Assembly (NCBI GenBank): GCA_013388755.1
Contig: JACAEQ010000064.1
Location: 1 to 62,063, forward strand
Origin: Chloroflexota bacterium
Lineage (GTDB): Bacteria; Chloroflexota; Chloroflexia; Chloroflexales; Roseiflexaceae
Length of the DNA stretch: 62,063 bases
Reading direction: 5' to 3'
Positions 3,112 to 12,497 of the stretch are shown here, piece after piece (positions within the stretch are counted from its first letter, which is position 1; each line of letters starts with the position of its first letter). Made by a program: the position numbers and the translations under genes. The notes under the pieces were generated by a model. It saw only the letters and a program-made list of their open reading frames with translations. It searched no databases and had not been told where the DNA came from.

Positions 3112-3229
3112 TCGTGACTGTTCCAGCCTGGCGCGAGCCATATCCAGGCGCATGCCCGAGCACGGCACGAATCGCGTGCCCACGGCATACCATTGCCGAG
3201 ATCGCCTGTCGCAGCCGGTCGCCTGTGGC

Positions 3230-3258
3230 TTGACATCCCCGTAGCAGCGTGTTACCAT
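3230..3258 (+). promoter_or_regulatory. Sigma70-type promoter upstream of the ABC uptake operon
   Basis: Perfect -35 TTGACA (3230-3235), 17-nt spacer, -10 TACCAT (3253-3258). It is the only good promoter seen before the solute-binding protein gene and would give a leader of about 270 nt containing a short remnant ORF. Confidence 0.65.
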
Positions 3259-3286
3259 TCCGGCCAATTACACGCTGGTTAAGCCA

Positions 3287-3391
3287 ATGAAACCATTCTC
3301 TCGCCGCGCTGCGGAGATCATGGAAAGCCCGAATATGGATGCGCCGGCGTCGCGCGTTTCCGATCAGGCAGTATGGGTGTTTCCCGGATGA
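3287..3391 (+). pseudogene. Possible 5' remnant of an aminotransferase gene (34 codons)
   Basis: An ATG about 22 nt after the predicted transcription start opens a 34-codon frame beginning MKPFSRRAAEIMESP, which resembles the start of class I/II PLP-dependent aminotransferases (SRRA..I..SPIR). After about 15 residues the resemblance ends and the frame stops at 3391. The rest of the leader to 3538 holds only the Shine-Dalgarno of the next gene. The match is short, so this may be coincidence or a short leader ORF. Confidence 0.3.
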
Positions 3392-3538
3392 GCGCGGCGA
3401 GCACGAAGAGCCGCCCGGCGCGCATAGCGCAAGGAGGGAGCCTATCGGAACAGCCTTTCTCTCACCGTTCAGACACCCACAGGAAGCAGGAGCACTGCAA
3501 CGTCCCTACTGAAGATTCCAGAAAGGAGCATGCTTCGC

Positions 3539-5509
3539 ATGAAGCTTCTCAACAACAGGGTGGCACTGCCACTGATTTTCGCCCTGGTTGTGCCCATTCT
3601 CGCGGCGTGTGGCGGAACGGCGGCACCTTCGGTGGTGCGCGAAACCGTCGTGGTGACGGCGGAGCCGGTGCGCGAGACGGTTGTGGTGCCGCAGACGGTC
3701 GTCTCCGAAGCGCCGACAGCCGAGGCGCCGACCACACCGAGCGCATTTACGACGCCGCATCCGATTCTGGGCGATCCCAGGGTGCGCCAGGCGATTGCCT
3801 ACTGCACCAACCGCGCTGAGTTGATCCAGTCGGTCTATAGCTACCTGACGCCGGAGCAGCAGCAAGGCCTGCTGATGGATACCCACCTGCCGAAGACGCA
3901 CTGGGCGGCTGCCGGCGAAGCGGATGGCATCGTGACCTATCCCTTCGATCCTGATAAGGGCAAGGCGCTGCTCGACGATGCGGGCTGGACATTGCCTGAA
4001 GGTGCGACGGTACGTGCGAAGGATGGGTTGCCACTCTCGCTTGAGTTTACCACCACCAACGCACAGTTCCGCATCACCTGGGCAACCGTGCTGGAGAAGC
4101 AGCTCCTCGACAACTGCGGCATCCAGATCATCCGCAAACATGCCCCGGGTTCCTGGTGGTTCGGTAGCGCCTCCGGTCTGCGCCGGCGCGACTATGAACT
4201 TGGTGCTTTCGCCTGGGTCGGTGAGGCGGATCCGGGTGGCCGCACGCTCTATGCCTGTGACCAGATCCCGCTGCCGGATAACAACTGGAACGGCCAGAAC
4301 TACATGGGCTGGTGCAACGAAACGGCCAGCAAGGCGATCACCGCGGCCAACAATACGTTGAACCGCGAGGAGCGCATCAAGAACTATAAGGCGTTCCAGG
4401 TCGAGTTCACCAAAGATATGGTCAGCCTGCCGCTGTTCCAGCGCCTTGAGGCGTACGGCTGGAACAAGGCGCTGAAGAACATGAAGCCTGACCCGACCGA
4501 GTATATCACTGCCAACGCCTATGAGTGGGAGCGCAGCGACAATGGCAATACGATTGTGCTTGGCTTCACCCAGGAGCCGGACACAATGTTTACGCTCGTG
4601 TCGAGCGCGGCGGTGCAGCGCCAGGCAGCGCAACTCGTCGAGGGCGTGCTGACGACCCAGTACAACTATGACTTCCAGCCGGTGCTGCAGGATGGTCTCT
4701 CGACGATCGAGAGCGGCAAGGCGAAGAATGAAGTCGTCGAGGTCAAAGATGGCGACAAGGTGTGGGACGCCACCGGCGCCGCCGTTGAACTCAAGCCGGG
4801 TGTGGAGATCATCAACTCTGATGGTGAGACGATCAAGTATGAGAGCGGCACGGTCAAGATGAACCAGTTGACCGTCACCTACGACCTGATCAGTGGCATC
4901 AAGTGGTCGGACGGTGAGCCGCTGAAGAAGGCCGACCTGGAACTGTCGGTCAAGATCGTTTGCGATCCTGAGTCGGGCAATGTGAGCCTGACCTTCTGCG
5001 AGTCGCATGACAATGCCAATGGCGTGACGGTCACCAGTGATACCAGCTATACGGTCAAGTTCCTGCCGGGCGTGCAGTGGCCGACGTACTACCTGGCGCC
5101 CTACGGTGGCTACCCCTCGCACGTGACCGTTTCGGACGGGCGGAAACTGGCCGATGTGCCGGCCAAGGATTGGGCGACTCTGCCGGAAGTTGCTGAGCTG
5201 CCGCTGGGCTATGGCCCCTACATTCTGAAGGAATGGAACAAGGGCCAGAGCATGAAGTTCGAGGCCAACCCGAACTTCGTCCTTGGCGCGCCGAAGGTCC
5301 AGAATGTTGTCATCCAGATCTATGCCGACACCAATGCGGCTGTGGCGGCGCTGTTGACCGGTGAGGTTGACATTCTGGAGAAGGCGACGCTCGGCGCCGG
5401 CCCTGAGGTGGAGACGGTGCTCAAGGCGGCGGCAGAGGGCAAGATCGAAGCCAAGACCGATGCCAGCCCGACCTGGGAACACATGGATATGAACCTGTTC
5501 GTACGCTAG
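3539..5509 (+). CDS. Circularly permuted family 5 (peptide/Opp-type) solute-binding lipoprotein
   Basis: Extracytoplasmic substrate receptor of the ABC importer encoded downstream. Start 3539 is preferred over 3530 because AAGGAG lies 10 nt upstream; it gives a lipoprotein signal with lipobox LAAC (Cys24), then a Val/Thr/Glu-rich linker to about residue 65. The domain halves are in swapped order. Residues about 76-335 carry what is normally the C-terminal half (DPRVRQAIAYCTNR at about 79, then FDPDKGKALLDDAGW). Residues about 336-656 carry what is normally the N-terminal half (VLGFTQEPDTMF, WSDGEPLKKADLE at about 456, GYGPYILKEW at about 556, ANPNF, TGEVDILE), ending at MDMNLFVR exactly where the standard chain would run on into DPRVRQAI. 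At 656 residues it holds one domain equivalent plus signal and linker. Ligand unknown; peptides are the family default. Confidence 0.93.
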   Translation: MKLLNNRVALPLIFALVVPILAACGGTAAPSVVRETVVVTAEPVRETVVVPQTVVSEAPTAEAPTTPSAFTTPHPILGDPRVRQAIAYCTNRAELIQSVYSYLTPEQQQGLLMDTHLPKTHWAAAGEADGIVTYPFDPDKGKALLDDAGWTLPEGATVRAKDGLPLSLEFTTTNAQFRITWATVLEKQLLDNCGIQIIRKHAPGSWWFGSASGLRRRDYELGAFAWVGEADPGGRTLYACDQIPLPDNNWNGQNYMGWCNETASKAITAANNTLNREERIKNYKAFQVEFTKDMVSLPLFQRLEAYGWNKALKNMKPDPTEYITANAYEWERSDNGNTIVLGFTQEPDTMFTLVSSAAVQRQAAQLVEGVLTTQYNYDFQPVLQDGLSTIESGKAKNEVVEVKDGDKVWDATGAAVELKPGVEIINSDGETIKYESGTVKMNQLTVTYDLISGIKWSDGEPLKKADLELSVKIVCDPESGNVSLTFCESHDNANGVTVTSDTSYTVKFLPGVQWPTYYLAPYGGYPSHVTVSDGRKLADVPAKDWATLPEVAELPLGYGPYILKEWNKGQSMKFEANPNFVLGAPKVQNVVIQIYADTNAAVAALLTGEVDILEKATLGAGPEVETVLKAAAEGKIEAKTDASPTWEHMDMNLFVR

Positions 5510-5525
5510 ATAGAACCCTGAATAT

Positions 5526-5578
5526 CTTCCGGGAAGGTTGAGGAGGGCGATCGATCTGCGTTTCAACCTTCCCGGAAG
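5526..5578 (+). terminator. Perfect 16-bp inverted repeat after the solute-binding protein gene
   Basis: Arms 5526-5541 and 5563-5578 are exact complements around a 21-nt loop, 16 nt after the stop codon. There is no T-run, so it is more likely an mRNA-stabilising or partial-attenuation hairpin that raises binding-protein levels over the permeases than a strict terminator. Confidence 0.6.
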
Positions 5579-5653
5579 CTATATGTCGAAGTAGTCAGGG
5601 CATACGGTGTTACCTGGTCATCTTCATCAGCCACACGTCGCTCGCTGAACACT

Positions 5654-5707
5654 GTCACTCGCGCTCCGTGCAATGACACGGAGGCGTGGCGTTCTTCGGA
5701 TAGGCAC
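5654..5707. repeat. Dispersed repeat fragment ending TTCGGATAGGCAC
   Basis: Contains GCAATGACA and ends TTCGGATAGGCAC. The same type of end closes the element at 52714-52726 and, as TTCGGATAGGCTC, the MITE at 61005-61163. The rest of the gap 5579-5853 holds no gene I can support. Confidence 0.5.
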
Positions 5708-5853
5708 CTGGCTGGTGTGATGGTGACCCCGGGCGTTGATGGACGCCTGAACATGGCTGGTGGCCTCATCCCTGGCGCGTTGCGCTTCTCCTTCTGGCTG
5801 CGGCGCGGGGGAAGGGAGTGAGGTTTCATAGCACGCCCCCCGGAGCTTATGGC

Positions 5854-7056
5854 ATGACAGCATACCTTATCCGCCGTCTCATTCAGATGGTGATTGTTAC
5901 CATTCTCTCGGCCATGCTTGGCTATACGTTGCTTTATATTGCGCCGGGCGGGCCGTTGTTGTTTTTGCAGCAGATGCAGAACACCGGGCAGCGCCGGGTT
6001 ACCGAAGAAGATATTGCGCGCCTGAAAGCGCGGTATGAACTTGACCTCTATTTGCCTGTTCGTTTTACGCGCTGGCTGGCCGGCATTCCAGCCGGGCCGG
6101 TGCAGATCGGTGGAGTGAATCTGATTTCGCCCGAGACGGTTGTCGGTTGCGCGATTCCCGGCCAGGTCCGTCTGCGCTATCCTGACGGCACAACCGAGAT
6201 TGTCGAAGAAGGGTGCAACCGTGTCGTGACGCTGGCCGATCTGGCCGAACGGCGCACCAGTCGTGGCATTCTGTTCGGCGACTTTGGCCTGTCCCAGCAG
6301 ATCGCCCGCGAGCGGCCGATCAGCGACCTGTTGATGAGTCGCTTACCCTACACGCTGCAGTTGATGGGGGTTTCGACGTTCCTGGCGATTTTGATCGGGG
6401 TGCCGATCGGTATCTATTCAGCCGTGCGCCAGTACTCGCGCTTTGATTATTTGATGACGGGCATTACGTTCGTCGGCTCGTCACTCCCCACGCTCTTCAT
6501 GGGTGTCATGGCGATCCTGATCTTTTCGGTGCTGGCGAAAGGCGCCGGCCTGCCCTACCTCCCCTCCGGTGGCGCGCAGGGGATTCGTGACTATACGGTG
6601 CCGTGGATTGGCGTCGTTGAGGCCGGTTCCGGGCTTGACCGGACCATGCGCTTCATCATGCCGTGTGCGGTGCTGACCTTCTTCAATATTGCCGGCTGGA
6701 GCCGCTTCATTCGTGCCAGCATGCTCGAAGTGTTGCGCCAGGATTATGTGCGCACGGCGCGCGCCAAGGGTGTGCGCGAGCGACTGGTGATTACCAAGCA
6801 CGCCCTGCGTAATGCGTTGATCCCGTTCGTGACGCTGCTGGCCGGCATTTTGCCGACGCTGGTCGCCGGAGCGGCGATTACCGAGTCGGTGTTCAACTGG
6901 CCCGGCATGGGTCGCCTGCTGGTTGATGCACTCGGTCGCAGCGACTACACGGTTGCGATGTCCATTCTGTTCATCAGTACCGTGCTGGTCCTGCTCGGGT
7001 ATCTGATCTCCGATATTCTGTATACGGTCGTTGACCCGCGCATCCGGCTCGCGTAA
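5854..7056 (+). CDS. ABC transporter permease, OppB/DppB type
   Basis: First membrane subunit of the peptide-type importer. Start 5854 (MTAYLIRRLIQM) has GGAG 8 nt upstream; an upstream in-frame ATG at 5818 lacks one. At 400 residues it is longer than usual (about 310-340) because of a roughly 70-residue insertion between helix 1 and the core, around IPAGPVQIGGVNLISPETVV to VTLADLAERR, probably extracytoplasmic. The core has the usual helices and the coupling loop EVLRQDYVRTARAKGVRE that contacts the ATPase. It is followed after 12 nt by the second permease. Confidence 0.93.
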   Translation: MTAYLIRRLIQMVIVTILSAMLGYTLLYIAPGGPLLFLQQMQNTGQRRVTEEDIARLKARYELDLYLPVRFTRWLAGIPAGPVQIGGVNLISPETVVGCAIPGQVRLRYPDGTTEIVEEGCNRVVTLADLAERRTSRGILFGDFGLSQQIARERPISDLLMSRLPYTLQLMGVSTFLAILIGVPIGIYSAVRQYSRFDYLMTGITFVGSSLPTLFMGVMAILIFSVLAKGAGLPYLPSGGAQGIRDYTVPWIGVVEAGSGLDRTMRFIMPCAVLTFFNIAGWSRFIRASMLEVLRQDYVRTARAKGVRERLVITKHALRNALIPFVTLLAGILPTLVAGAAITESVFNWPGMGRLLVDALGRSDYTVAMSILFISTVLVLLGYLISDILYTVVDPRIRLA

Positions 7057-7068
7057 GGAGGGGTTTCG

Positions 7069-8067
7069 ATGGCAACCACGACTGCACCGGCTTCCAGCGC
7101 CATCGAACGTGCGCAGAGTCGCTCCGAGGGGCAGTGGGCGGTCGTCTTCCGCCGCTTCCGGCGGCATCGCCTGGCGATGGTTAGCCTGGGTATTCTGGTA
7201 ATCATTTTCGGCGCCTCGATTCTGGCGCCCTGGATTGCGCCCTTCCCGCGTGATGATATCGGGCTGAATCGCACGACCCTCCCGCCGATGACGCCCGACC
7301 CGGTGACCGGCAGGTTACACGTTCTCGGTACGGATCATCTCGGACGCGATTTCTTTACGCGTGTCATCTATGCGGCGCGCGTCTCACTGATGGTCGCGCT
7401 GTCAGTAACGACGCTGGTGGCGATTACCGGGTCGCTGCTGGGATTGATTGCCGGGTTCTTCGGCGGCTGGGTGGATAATGCCATCAGCCGGGTGATGGAG
7501 TTCGTTGCAACGATACCCGATCTGCCCATTCTGTTGATCCTCAGTTCGATCATGATCCAGAATGCCGATCTCATTGTGTTGCCGGTATGGATCATCGGGC
7601 CGGTGGCGTGGATCATGGCGGTGCCGGCTCGCGAGGCGACGCAGGTGGCGCTCTTGATCCTGGTGCTGGCGTCGCTTGGTTGGGTCGGCGTGGCGCGCTT
7701 GATGCGCGGCATGGTGCTGCAGGTGCGCGAAATGCAGTACATTGAGTCGGCGCGCTCCCTCGGCGGCTCCAATGTCTGGATCCTGGCGAAGCATGTGTTC
7801 CCCAACTCCTTCCCGCCGCTGATTGTGGCCTTTACGCTCGGTCTCAACGGCGCGCTGGTGAGTGAGGTGGCGATCAGTTTCCTCGGCTTCGGTGTCCAGG
7901 ATCCTACGCCGACATGGGGCAATATGATGGGGTTCGCCACCAGTTATATGTTCAACCATCCGTGGATGCCGCTTATCCCGGGGTTGCCGATCTTTCTGTG
8001 CTCGCTGGCCTTCAACTTTATCGGCGATGGTCTGCGTGACGCGCTTGATCCGCGGTTGAAGCTCTAA
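7069..8067 (+). CDS. ABC transporter permease, OppC/DppC type
   Basis: Second membrane subunit, 332 residues. It has the N-terminal OppC_N segment (RRFRRHRLAMVSLGILVIIF), the GTDHLGRDFFTRVIYAARVS motif characteristic of OppC/DppC, several helices, and the coupling loop MQYIESARSLGGSN. A good Shine-Dalgarno (AAGGAGGG) precedes the ATG by 6 nt. It pairs with the OppB-type subunit 12 nt upstream. About 55 residues around 155-190 (MIQNADLIVLPVWIIGPVAW...) form an extra hydrophobic stretch compared with short family members. Confidence 0.93.
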   Translation: MATTTAPASSAIERAQSRSEGQWAVVFRRFRRHRLAMVSLGILVIIFGASILAPWIAPFPRDDIGLNRTTLPPMTPDPVTGRLHVLGTDHLGRDFFTRVIYAARVSLMVALSVTTLVAITGSLLGLIAGFFGGWVDNAISRVMEFVATIPDLPILLILSSIMIQNADLIVLPVWIIGPVAWIMAVPAREATQVALLILVLASLGWVGVARLMRGMVLQVREMQYIESARSLGGSNVWILAKHVFPNSFPPLIVAFTLGLNGALVSEVAISFLGFGVQDPTPTWGNMMGFATSYMFNHPWMPLIPGLPIFLCSLAFNFIGDGLRDALDPRLKL

Positions 8068-8243: not shown

Positions 8244-9320
8244 GTGCCGGTGCAACTCGTATTCAGCAAGAAGAGAACCGTGACGACTTCATCTGTATCC
8301 GCGCCGGACGCCACTCCGCAATCGGCGGCCAGAAACGGCGATGTGCTGCTCAAAGTGCGCGGGCTGAAGACATATTTCTATACCGAGGGCGGGGTTGTGC
8401 GCGCGGTGGATGGAATTGACCTGACGCTGCGCCGGGGCGAGGCGCTTGGCATCGTCGGCGAGAGCGGATGCGGTAAGAGTGTGACTTCACTCTCCATCCT
8501 GCGACTGATCCAGGATCCGCCGGGCAAGATCGTTGAAGGTGAGATAATCTTCGACGGGACCGATGTGCGCGCGCTGAGCGAAGAAGATATGCGCCAGGTG
8601 CGCGGCAACCGTATTTCGATGATCTTCCAGCAGCCAACGACATGCCTCAATCCCGTGTTCCGGGTGGGCGACCAGATCACCGAGGCGCTGGAGATTCACC
8701 AGGGCTTGCGCGGCGAAGAGGCGCGCAAGCGCGCAATCGAGTTGTTCTCCCTCGTCGGTTTGCCTGACCCGGCACGACGTATCAATCAGTACCCCCACGA
8801 ACTGTCGGGCGGGCAGGCGCAGCGTGTCATGATTGCGATGGCGCTGGCCTGCAACCCGGAACTCTTGATTGCTGATGAACCGACGACTGCGCTCGACGTG
8901 ACGATCCAGGCGCAGATCCTCGATCTGATGCGCGCGTTGCGCGAGAAAATCAATACATCCATCATCCTGATCACCCACGACATGGGGGTGGTCGCCGAGA
9001 TGGTTGATACCGTGGCGGTGATGTATGCCGGCCAGATCGTGGAATATGCCGATGTGCTCCAGATCTTCGCTGATCCAAAGCACCCGTATACCCGTGGATT
9101 GCTCGATTCTATTCCGGTCCTGGGTGAGATCGTAGATGAACTGGCAACGATTCCCGGTACGGTGCCAAGCCTGATTGACCCGCCGCAGGGGTGCCGTTTC
9201 GCAGATCGCTGCTCGCGCCGATTTGCGCGCTGTGACGACCCTGTGCCGATGTTCGAACTCGAAGGCGGGCGCCAGGTGCGTTGCTGGCTGTATGCGCCTG
9301 ATGCGCCGCAACAGGAATAA
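8244..9320 (+). CDS. ABC transporter ATPase, OppD/DppD type (pair 1)
   Basis: ATPase energising peptide-type uptake. Walker [10 protein letters not shown]-loop FQQPTTC, signature ELSGGQAQRV, Walker [14 protein letters not shown]-loop THD, and the C-terminal oligopeptide-transporter tail with spaced Cys (GCRFADRCSRRFARC), which in some DppD proteins binds an iron-sulfur cluster. The start is uncertain: GTG 8244 has no Shine-Dalgarno, while GTG 8280 follows AAGAAGAG and may be the true start. The 176-nt gap after oppC contains a 9-bp inverted repeat (GTGTGATTG) and a CTGTCGAAGG tag, but no gene. Confidence 0.92.
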   Translation: MPVQLVFSKKRTVTTSSVSAPDATPQSAARNGDVLLKVRGLKTYFYTEGGVVRAVDGIDLTLRRGEALGIVGESGCGKSVTSLSILRLIQDPPGKIVEGEIIFDGTDVRALSEEDMRQVRGNRISMIFQQPTTCLNPVFRVGDQITEALEIHQGLRGEEARKRAIELFSLVGLPDPARRINQYPHELSGGQAQRVMIAMALACNPELLIADEPTTALDVTIQAQILDLMRALREKINTSIILITHDMGVVAEMVDTVAVMYAGQIVEYADVLQIFADPKHPYTRGLLDSIPVLGEIVDELATIPGTVPSLIDPPQGCRFADRCSRRFARCDDPVPMFELEGGRQVRCWLYAPDAPQQE

Positions 9321-9329
9321 GACGCGACG

Positions 9330-10343
9330 ATGCAGATGATGAACGTACCTGCGAAAACCGGGCTTTCAAGCGATACGCTGCTTGAGGTCAATAACCTGGT
9401 GAAGCATTTCCCGATCAAAGGTGGGGTGCTCCGCCGAACCGTTGCGCTGGTGAAGGCGGTGGACGGCGTGAGTTTTACGCTCAAACGCGGTGAAACCCTT
9501 GGCCTGGTCGGCGAGAGTGGTTGTGGCAAAACGACGACCGGGCGAACGATCTTGCGCCTTGAAAAAGCCACCGACGGCGAAGTCGTGTTCGATGGCAGAG
9601 ATGTGCTGGCCGCGTCGGGCAGCCAGATGAAGGCGTTGCGCCGTGATATGCAGATTGTGTTCCAGGACCCATACGCCTCCCTCGATCCGCGCATGACGAT
9701 CGGCGAGAGTGTGGCCGAAGGGTTAAATATCCATGGTATCGGCAGCAAGGCGGAACGGATCGAACGCGTGCGCGAAGTGCTGGCCAAGGTCGGCATGCAT
9801 CCAGGCCATATGGAACGGTTCCCGCACGAGTTTTCCGGTGGCCAGCGCCAGCGCATCGGCATTGCACGCGCGCTCGTGATGAACCCCAAACTGATCGTGT
9901 GCGATGAACCCGTGTCGGCGCTTGATGTGTCGATCCAGTCGCAGGTGCTCAACCTGTTGCGCAATCTGCAGCAGGAGTTCGGCCTGACCTACCTGTTCAT
10001 TGCGCATAACCTGAGCGTTGTCGAGCACATCAGTAACCGTGTCGGCGTGATGTACCTGGGGAAGATGGTCGAACTTGCCGATCGGGTTGAACTGTTCCGC
10101 CGCCCGCTCCACCCGTATTCAAAAGCGCTGATTTCGGCCATTCCCGTGCCGAATCCGACGGTGCGCCGCGAGCGTATCCTGCTGCAGGGTGATGTGCCCA
10201 GCCCGATCAACCCGCCGAAAGGGTGCCGCTTTCACCCGCGCTGCTGGATGGCGCGCGATATTTGCCGTGAGGTCGAGCCGGCATTCGAGGAAAAGGCACC
10301 GGGCCACTGGTCAGCCTGCCACTTTGCACATGAGGTGTCGTGA
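9330..10343 (+). CDS. ABC transporter ATPase, OppF/DppF type (pair 1)
   Basis: Partner ATPase for the OppD-type subunit 9 nt upstream; the pair forms the nucleotide-binding heterodimer. Residues include the OppF-type [13 protein letters not shown] start, Walker A GESGCGKT, signature [15 protein letters not shown], Walker [13 protein letters not shown], and the C-terminal [15 protein letters not shown] tail. ATGs at 9330, 9336 and 9339 are all possible starts. At 337 residues it is of normal length. Confidence 0.92.
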
Positions 10344-10361
10344 CGTCTGGAAGGAGTAATC

Positions 10362-11381
10362 ATGTCGCAGCCGTTGCTCGTCGTCAAGAACCTGGAAACC
10401 CACTTCAAAACCCAGGACGGTGTCGTCAAAGCCGTCAACAATGTGTCGTTCCATGTGAACCGTGGCGAAACGCTCGGCATCGTCGGCGAGAGCGGCTCGG
10501 GTAAGAGTGTCACGTCATTGTCGATTATGCGGCTCATCCCGAACCCGCCGGGCAGGATTGCCGGCGGGCAGATCATCTTCGACAACGATAACCTGCTCGA
10601 TTACAGCGATGAGGAAATGCGGCACATTCGTGGTAACCGGATCGCGATGATCTTTCAGGATCCGATGACATCGCTCAATCCGGTGCTGACGATCGGCCGC
10701 CAGATTACCGAATCGCTTGAATTGCACATGAAGTTGACGCCCAAAGAGGCGCGCCATCGCGCGGTTGAATTGCTGCAGATGGTCGGCATCCCGGGCGCTG
10801 CGCGCCGCCTCGATGACTACCCGCACCAGTTTTCGGGTGGTATGCGCCAGCGCGTCATGATCGCCATGGCGCTCTCGTGCAACCCGGAATTGCTGATCGC
10901 CGACGAGCCAACGACCGCGCTCGATGTGACGATTCAGGCCCAGATCCTTGAATTGATCGGGCGGTTGCAGCATGAACTCGGTACTGCAGTGATTATCATT
11001 ACGCACGACCTGGGTGTGGTCGCCGGTATGGCCGATCGGGTGATCGTCATGTATGCCGGGCGTATCGTTGAAGAGGGGCCGACCGACGAGATCTTTGCGC
11101 GCCCGCGGATGCCGTACACCATCGGGTTGCTGCGCTCCATCCCGCGCCTGGATGAAAGCGAGGATCGCAAACTTACCCCTATTCGCGGCTTGCCACCCGA
11201 TCTGATTGGCCTGCCGCAGATCTGCCCGTTCAGCCCGCGCTGTGACTATTTCATTCCCGGCAAGTGTGATCAGCAGACGCCGCCGTTGCGTGAGGTGGCG
11301 CCTGACCATAAGGCTGCCTGCCTGTTCGATATTACGCTGGAGACGCCACTCCCCGCAACCGGTGATGAGGTCCCGGTCTGA
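10362..11381 (+). CDS. ABC transporter ATPase, OppD/DppD type (pair 2)
   Basis: Second OppD-type ATPase of the operon, clearly paralogous to the first (same [20 protein letters not shown] and [10 protein letters not shown] blocks). Walker A GESGSGKS, signature [15 protein letters not shown], Walker [13 protein letters not shown], and a C-terminal [15 protein letters not shown] tail. AAGGAG lies 7 nt before the ATG. It directly follows the first OppF gene after 18 nt, so one transcript encodes two complete ATPase pairs for one permease pair. The second pair could serve another permease, or duplicate the first. Confidence 0.92.
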
Positions 11382-11438
11382 CATCCGTCCGTCAGATTGC
11401 ATCCACTGGCTGATTGACGAGTAGATGAGGAACGTACG

Positions 11439-12497
11439 ATGAGCAATGGTTCGACCGACCTGGTCCAGGTGCGTGGCTTGAAGATGCATTTCCCCGTCAC
11501 AAAAGGGGTTGTGATCAAACGCACGGTCGCTCACGTCAAGGCGGTTGACGGTGTGACCTTCTCGATCAAGCGCGGCGAGACGCTGGGCCTGGTGGGGGAG
11601 AGCGGCTGTGGTAAGTCAACGACCGGGCGTGCCATTTTGCAGCTCTACAAGCCAACGGCGGGCGAGGTACTGTTTCAGGGCACCGATCTCACCCGGCTTA
11701 ACGGTGAGGAGATGCGCCGTATGCGGCGCAAGGTGCAGATGATCTTCCAGGACCCGTACGCCTCGCTCAATCCGCGCATGACCGTTGGCGATATTATCGG
11801 CGAGCCGATTGGCGTACATAACCTGCGCCAGGGGCGCGCCGCCATCCGCGAGCGTGTGCAGGAACTGCTTGAGCTTGTCGGCCTGAACCCGTACTTTATC
11901 AACCGGTATCCGCACGAGTTTTCCGGTGGCCAGCGCCAGCGCATCGGTATCGCGCGCGCCCTGGCGGTCGAACCCGAGTTCGTGGTGTGCGACGAGCCGG
12001 TGTCGGCGCTCGATGTCTCCATCCAGGCTCAGGTGCTTAATCTGCTCGAAGACCTGCAGCAGCGCCTGGGGCTGACCTATCTGTTCATCGCGCATGGCCT
12101 GGCGGTCGTCAAACATATCAGCGACCGGGTGGCCGTTATGTACCTCGGCAAGGTGGTCGAACTGGCCGAAGGCAAGAAGCTCTATGCCATGCCGATGCAT
12201 CCGTATACGCAGGCGCTCCTCTCGGCGGCGCCGATCCCTGACCCGTCGGTTGAGAAGCGGCGCCAGCGCGTTATTCTCGAAGGCGATGTGCCCAGCCCGC
12301 TGAACCCGCCCCCCGGCTGTCATTTCCACACCCGTTGCCCGATCGCCATCGAACGCTGCAAGAGCGAAGAACCACCGTTCGAGGATTATGGTGATGGGCA
12401 TTATGTCGCCTGCTGGCGCGCGAAGGAGTCGATCGAACTCTTGCAGACCAGCGTGATGCGCTCGACCAGGTATCGCCCCGATGCAGCGCAGGCATGA
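11439..12497 (+). CDS. ABC transporter ATPase, OppF/DppF type (pair 2)
   Basis: Second OppF-type ATPase, paralogous to the gene at 9330. It shows [14 protein letters not shown], Walker A GESGCGKS, signature [15 protein letters not shown], Walker [13 protein letters not shown] and the tail [22 protein letters not shown] precedes the ATG. It is the last gene of the ABC operon; a GTTGAAC-type inverted repeat follows at 12530-12559 and may act as the 3' end of the transcript. Confidence 0.92.

Follow-up and report, generated by a model that had tools for sequence, protein, structure and literature searches.

The solute-binding protein (SBP) gene at positions 3530-5509 of the analysed window, i.e. 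the whole stretch of 62,063 nucleotides from a Chloroflexota bacterium of the Roseiflexaceae, very probably encodes the family 5 receptor of an Opp/Dpp-type importer that has become circularly permuted, with one origin apparently in place within its operon, and that Chloroflexota have retained. Few bacterial receptors are more common than family 5 SBPs, and the permuted form is a real, old rewiring of this very common protein found in many Chloroflexota. Its origin was probably single, living members both with and without the change are numerous, conventional relatives sit in operons that can be compared, and the joint looks seamless; the permuted clade can thus be viewed as a natural experiment on whether the location of the chain ends and of the lipid anchor matters for Venus-flytrap closure and permease docking. 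The gene is composed of the following parts:

3530-5509, + strand: permuted SBP gene, a lipoprotein open reading frame (ORF) of 659 aa with its stop codon at 5507-5509
3530..3610, + strand: signal peptide and lipobox ending at Cys27 (AACGG), recognised from the sequence
3611..3748, + strand: Val/Thr/Glu/Pro-rich linker from the lipidated Cys to the fold, 47 residues counted from the Cys
3749..4546, + strand: segment B, residues 74-339, from TTPHPILGDPRVRQAI to YEWERSDNG, corresponding to conventional-profile positions 312-566
4523..4546, + strand: new joint EWERSDNG where the former C- and N-termini meet, taken from the joint table of relatives
4547..5506, + strand: segment A, residues 340-659, from NTIVLGFTQEPDTMF to TWEHMDMNLFVR, corresponding to conventional-profile positions 5-305
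5447..5491, + strand: C-terminal strand, model residues 571-585 or about residues 640-654, assigned by DSSP and putatively equivalent to a strand described in PMC11192437

A second ATG at 3539, three codons into the ORF of 3530-5509, is an alternative start and the one used in the first-pass annotation of this DNA. A lipobox is seen in 25 of the 32 permuted representatives, and the Val/Thr/Glu-rich linker that had been described from the letters alone recurs in most relatives, with a median of 44 residues in permuted relatives versus 30 in conventional ones and overlapping ranges. Segment B, which follows the linker, is the conventional C-terminal part comprising the bulk of lobe 2 together with the final piece of lobe 1, and segment A is the conventional N-terminal part placed second. 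The joint between them, 4 to 8 residues long in relatives, reads EWERSDNG then NTIVLGF in our protein and EWELSDGG then DTIVLGF in relatives. The new break separates NLFVR from TTPHPILGD, and some ordinary relatives have just one or two residues between the matching motifs. The unusual motif order that first drew attention to this gene is indeed present: the DPRVRQAIAYCTNR block sits early in the chain at residue 82 (79 when counted from the second ATG), QEPDTMF and WSDGEP both come late, after residue 340, and the chain stops after TWEHMDMNLFVR.

That these features reflect a circular permutation of one family 5 fold, as had been proposed, is supported by alignment to a duplicated profile, by a structure model and by matches to solved structures. 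PF00496 scores 161 bits on the permuted SBP (gathering cut-off 32.4; Pfam) in two stretches, and an hmmsearch of its own genome found their order reversed, with profile 202-353 lying upstream of profile 8-207; the 15 other family 5 SBPs of this genome match PF00496 in the usual order, leaving the window gene alone with a swapped one. Because of this swapped profile order, we class the protein among permuted variants of PF00496 instead of counting it as an ordinary member. The same exchange is seen in a PDB sequence comparison with the oligopeptide-binding protein of Thermus thermophilus (2d5w), the best solved relative by both sequence and structure and itself of conventional order, where query residues 80-318 match chain residues 322-563 and query residues 559-657 match chain residues 207-311. 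A conventional profile built from 39 ordinary Chloroflexota relatives aligned in two pieces, with positions 312-566 on aa 77-336 (225 bits) and positions 5-305 on aa 338-656 (189 bits). When the same alignment was written twice to give a duplicated profile, a comparison that the first-pass annotation had suggested as a check, the result was one continuous, unbroken alignment over positions 312-872 of 1134 with 428.5 bits. All of the 32 permuted representatives cross the copy boundary of the duplicated profile in like manner; conventional controls kept to one profile copy, with six overrunning via the linker by at most about 33 positions. Judged from these alignments, the swapped order of the two segments lies far beyond chance. 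We note that tools requiring one collinear match under-score permuted SBPs, and that annotation pipelines see two domain fragments and miss the rearrangement because sequence tools demand a single collinear match.

The AlphaFold2 model of residues 70-659, computed from 50 sequences (49 homologues and the query), reached a pLDDT of 93.9 and a pTM of 0.89, and according to this model the permuted SBP is one confident single unit, the single fold that was expected for a permuted chain. In a sequential structure comparison, model residues 7-267 match residues 272-507 of E. coli DppA (1dpe) with a Z of 22.2, and the first half of the model also aligns to AppA, NikZ and NikA, with matches that reach their C-termini or come close to them; Z values of 22-25 were obtained against the C-terminal parts of DppA, NikA and OppA in a comparison that covers the first half alone. 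Foldseek with the permuted model returned a TM of about 0.3 over about 300 columns, a low value that fits a sequential aligner able to follow only one half. A reading of this TM as a sign of a new fold was dropped, given that such a value is expected for a one-half sequential alignment. A control model of a conventional neighbour, computed from three sequences only, reached a pLDDT of 40 and was left out of the comparison.

The C-terminal end of the model consists of helix 556-566, from which a short loop leads to a long strand, 571-585 (DSSP). In AliD and AliC of pneumococcus, lobe 2 is made up of domain III alone, and the inter-lobe hinge loop links helix 7 to strand 14 (PMC11192437). If the helix and strand of the model correspond to these elements of AliC and AliD, the hinge loop and its strand would be kept and the break would lie beyond them, i.e. 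the last helix and the strand leading from lobe 1 to lobe 2 would both be retained at the C-terminus. The first-pass annotation had put the new termini exactly at the inter-lobe hinge; based on the DSSP assignment and the comparison to PMC11192437, we correct this to a position that should lie on the side of lobe 2, shortly beyond the hinge strand, with both inter-lobe crossovers staying covalent.

A search for the same order of segments in other Chloroflexota had been suggested, and this order was indeed found in samples of the family, the order and the phylum. Collinear full-length homologues are present in 21 of 26 genomes at the level of the family, in 58 of 82 at that of the order and in 43 of the 400 genomes sampled over the phylum, tallies that count a few genomes with a split or partial copy. 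The permuted form is absent from the families f3 and f4 of the same order (0 of 15 genomes). Among 84,980 species genomes scanned, we found 56 permuted loci that include single-contig genomes and several Anaerolineae lineages and that all come from genomes titled Chloroflexota, except for one (L056). This locus belongs to a metagenome-assembled genome titled Singulisphaera sp., yet its permuted SBP resembles those of Roseiflexaceae, and the title or the binning is probably wrong. Across the clade, the chains begin with TTPHPILxD and stop after WEHxDxNL with a few short C-terminal extensions, and conservation of the main copy extends across the whole fold, with a mean column identity of 60%. 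The plasmid matches listed have less than 60% identity and are mostly partial or in two pieces; in the list read as a whole, none was seen to be permuted.

The permuted proteins form one clade in the trees of half B (SH-aLRT 100), half A (99) and both halves joined (100), and a long stem with about 0.8 changes per column leads to this clade. A single origin of the permutation is the simplest reading of these trees. The permeases of the permuted operons likewise form one clade (99), with the permeases of f3/f4 operons with conventional SBPs as sister (96), in a tree where two rows labelled conventional come from operons that also hold a permuted gene. In the comparable operon of f3/f4, a conventional SBP occupies the position of the permuted gene and a second SBP is found at the far end. 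Because the permease tree and the operon order place these conventional operons nearest, they suggest that the permutation arose in place within an existing operon. AU tests on the SBP trees do not separate the possible conventional sisters of the permuted SBP itself, and neither does the joined tree. The f3/f4 group falls outside both the Anaerolineae and the f1/f2 rows, so transfer or loss must have played a part in the history of the permuted form. As to the route, the first-pass annotation had pointed to tandem duplication followed by trimming of both ends. Duplication is the putative route to the permutation; no intermediate with a repeated half was found among the ORFs collected, and the DNA on either side of the gene (3194-3540 and 5507-5830) holds no remnants of lost copies.

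Two explanations would account for the swapped halves without the permutation of one gene. An assembly or sequencing join that artificially exchanged them has nothing found in its favour and is vanishingly improbable, as the same order is found in dozens of independent assemblies, complete single-contig genomes among them, and the trees of both halves agree on one clade. The many independent genomes thus rule out an assembly artefact, and both findings that had been named as contrary to a permutation, the usual lobe order and an assembly join, are excluded. It is less easy to dismiss, if still rather unlikely, that the gene is a chimera mimicking a permutation, with its back half taken from one SBP gene and its front half from another SBP gene next to it. 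Comparable operons often carry two SBP genes, with a conventional SBP on each side in f3/f4, several Anaerolineae have a conventional SBP in or directly beside the permuted operon, and the trees of the two halves favour different weak sisters. However, AU tests reject no shared sister for either half, group S2 as the nearest one by the permease tree is compatible with both, and joint and cut are precise without overlap or loss, all of which speaks against a chimera.

Downstream of the permuted gene, the operon continues with the following features:

5525..5580, + strand: intercistronic RNA hairpin in the gap that separates the SBP and permease genes, strong, with -40.8 kcal/mol and a z of -4.7 for 5510-5600
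5818..7056, + strand: DppB/OppB-type permease (NCBIfam Opp2B/Opp4B below equivalog cut-offs; conserved neighbour)
7069..8067, + strand: DppC/OppC-type permease (NCBIfam, conserved neighbour)
8244..9320, + strand: OppD-type ATPase, first copy (NCBIfam, conserved neighbour)
9330..10343, + strand: OppF/DppF-type ATPase, first copy (NCBIfam, conserved neighbour)
10362..12497, + strand: second OppD/OppF-type ATPase pair at 10362-11381 and 11439-12497 (NCBIfam, gene neighbourhood)

These Opp/Dpp permeases and ATPases are the neighbours of family 5 SBPs, and the order of SBP, two permeases and two ATPases is kept in nearly every permuted locus with enough flanking sequence. Tandem OppD/OppF-type ATPase pairs like those at 8244-12497 of the window also follow the permeases in L033, L043 and L136. 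In the f3/f4 operons L106, L107 and L109, one conventional SBP precedes the permeases and another, belonging to a different group, follows the ATPases. A hairpin after a receptor gene commonly favours the receptor message over the permease message, and the one after the permuted SBP gene could do the same. The nearest NCBIfam models are oligopeptide and nickel receptors, with scores so far below every equivalog cut-off that a peptide as ligand class is only a guess. The AWVGEADP region is conserved, but among 50 sequences position 234 holds D in 40 and E in 9, and due to this variation the Asp that binds the peptide amine gives no ligand call.

In the mechanism that we propose, the old C- and N-termini would have been joined through 4 to 8 residues while a new break opened in the loop just after the strand leading from lobe 1 to lobe 2. 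The chain would fold into a single two-lobed receptor of the ordinary kind that keeps both inter-lobe crossovers, closes on its ligand and passes it to the adjacent permease, and the lipid anchor with its linker would enter via lobe 2 and not via lobe 1. In E. coli DppABCDF, a scoop motif of the permease inserts between the two lobes of the receptor (PMC12136057), and by analogy the moved lipid anchor could affect docking to the permease. It is conceivable, if doubtful, that the phylum-wide permutation of single origin shifts the anchor to lobe 2 from its former place on lobe 1, with the consequence that the receptor docks on its permeases, or is shared among them, in a different way.

The protein might also act in a different manner. 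A domain-swapped dimer, in which lobe 1 of one chain would close on lobe 2 of another and the permutation would tune the swap, would fit the same sequence data. It has a parallel in AliC, an ordinary family member that crystallised in this way, with the swap located at the hinge loop close to that region (PMC11192437). We consider this improbable, since the monomer model is confident as one unit, the joint is short and, according to its authors, there is no evidence that the swapped AliC dimer is functional (PMC11192437). A slightly smaller chance still goes to the permuted protein being a sensor or a decayed copy that rides in the operon and not the receptor of the importer. Some permuted paralogues (L123 and L124) are indeed decayed or have extra domains and lie away from permease genes, but the main copy is conserved over its whole fold, comes first in its operon and has permeases that form a matching clade.

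The only natural permutation of an SBP that we found in the literature searched (without subscription journals and preprints) is TpMglB-2 (Tp0684), a glucose receptor of cluster B from Treponema pallidum with a circularly permuted chain, which its authors termed "Type Ic / Cluster Bc" and for which they discussed membrane tethering as a possible reason for the permutation (PMC4990184); within the same scope, no natural permutation was found in family 5. Both proteins are tethered lipoproteins and natural circular permutations of a two-lobed SBP. However, TpMglB-2 is a sugar-binding receptor of cluster B in which the permutation adds a fourth crossover, whereas the protein studied here is of cluster C and its crossovers appear unchanged. 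The permuted SBP matches only PF00496 in Pfam and only family 5 models in NCBIfam, with no match to the cluster B sugar-binding family. With family 5 SBPs such as DppA, OppA and NikA (PF00496; cluster C) it shares homology of both halves, the type of operon and the nature of a lipoprotein receptor, but its parts are swapped, the old termini are fused and the new termini are predicted to be on the lobe 2 side. AliC of Streptococcus pneumoniae (PMC11192437) is similar in that its lobes are exchanged via the same inter-lobe region, where the connection can open, yet it has the ordinary chain order and its swap is one between molecules and not a permutation.

Beyond the main copies, we found several divergent, broken or fused relatives. 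L031 (G013:C146:46416-48155) is a divergent permuted paralogue with ca. 39% identity, no evident lipobox and an altered C-terminus (PSPSAELLAFVLDAQ). The permuted genes at L122:6303-8343 and L082:1663-3862 have frames broken inside segment A and close to the segment joint, respectively, in each case due to either sequencing error or decay. A permuted paralogue of 822 aa at L123:5035-7500 (G229) carries a C-terminal extension past WEHIDMNL that ends in LYLPIINR and in which Pfam found no domain. At L124:6431-7675 (also listed as L032; G008, a single-contig genome), an apparently decayed permuted paralogue has its frame broken near the start of the fold and has lost the whole lobe 1 part, with SLPLFLRSN running straight into ATVWEHIDFNLQ and a beta-rich tail ending in FLPMVMR. 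Finally, the genome of the window itself has a single open frame of 1502 codons in which a conventional SBP_bac_5 domain is fused downstream of an AAA_16 ATPase (L103, C102:8829-9899).
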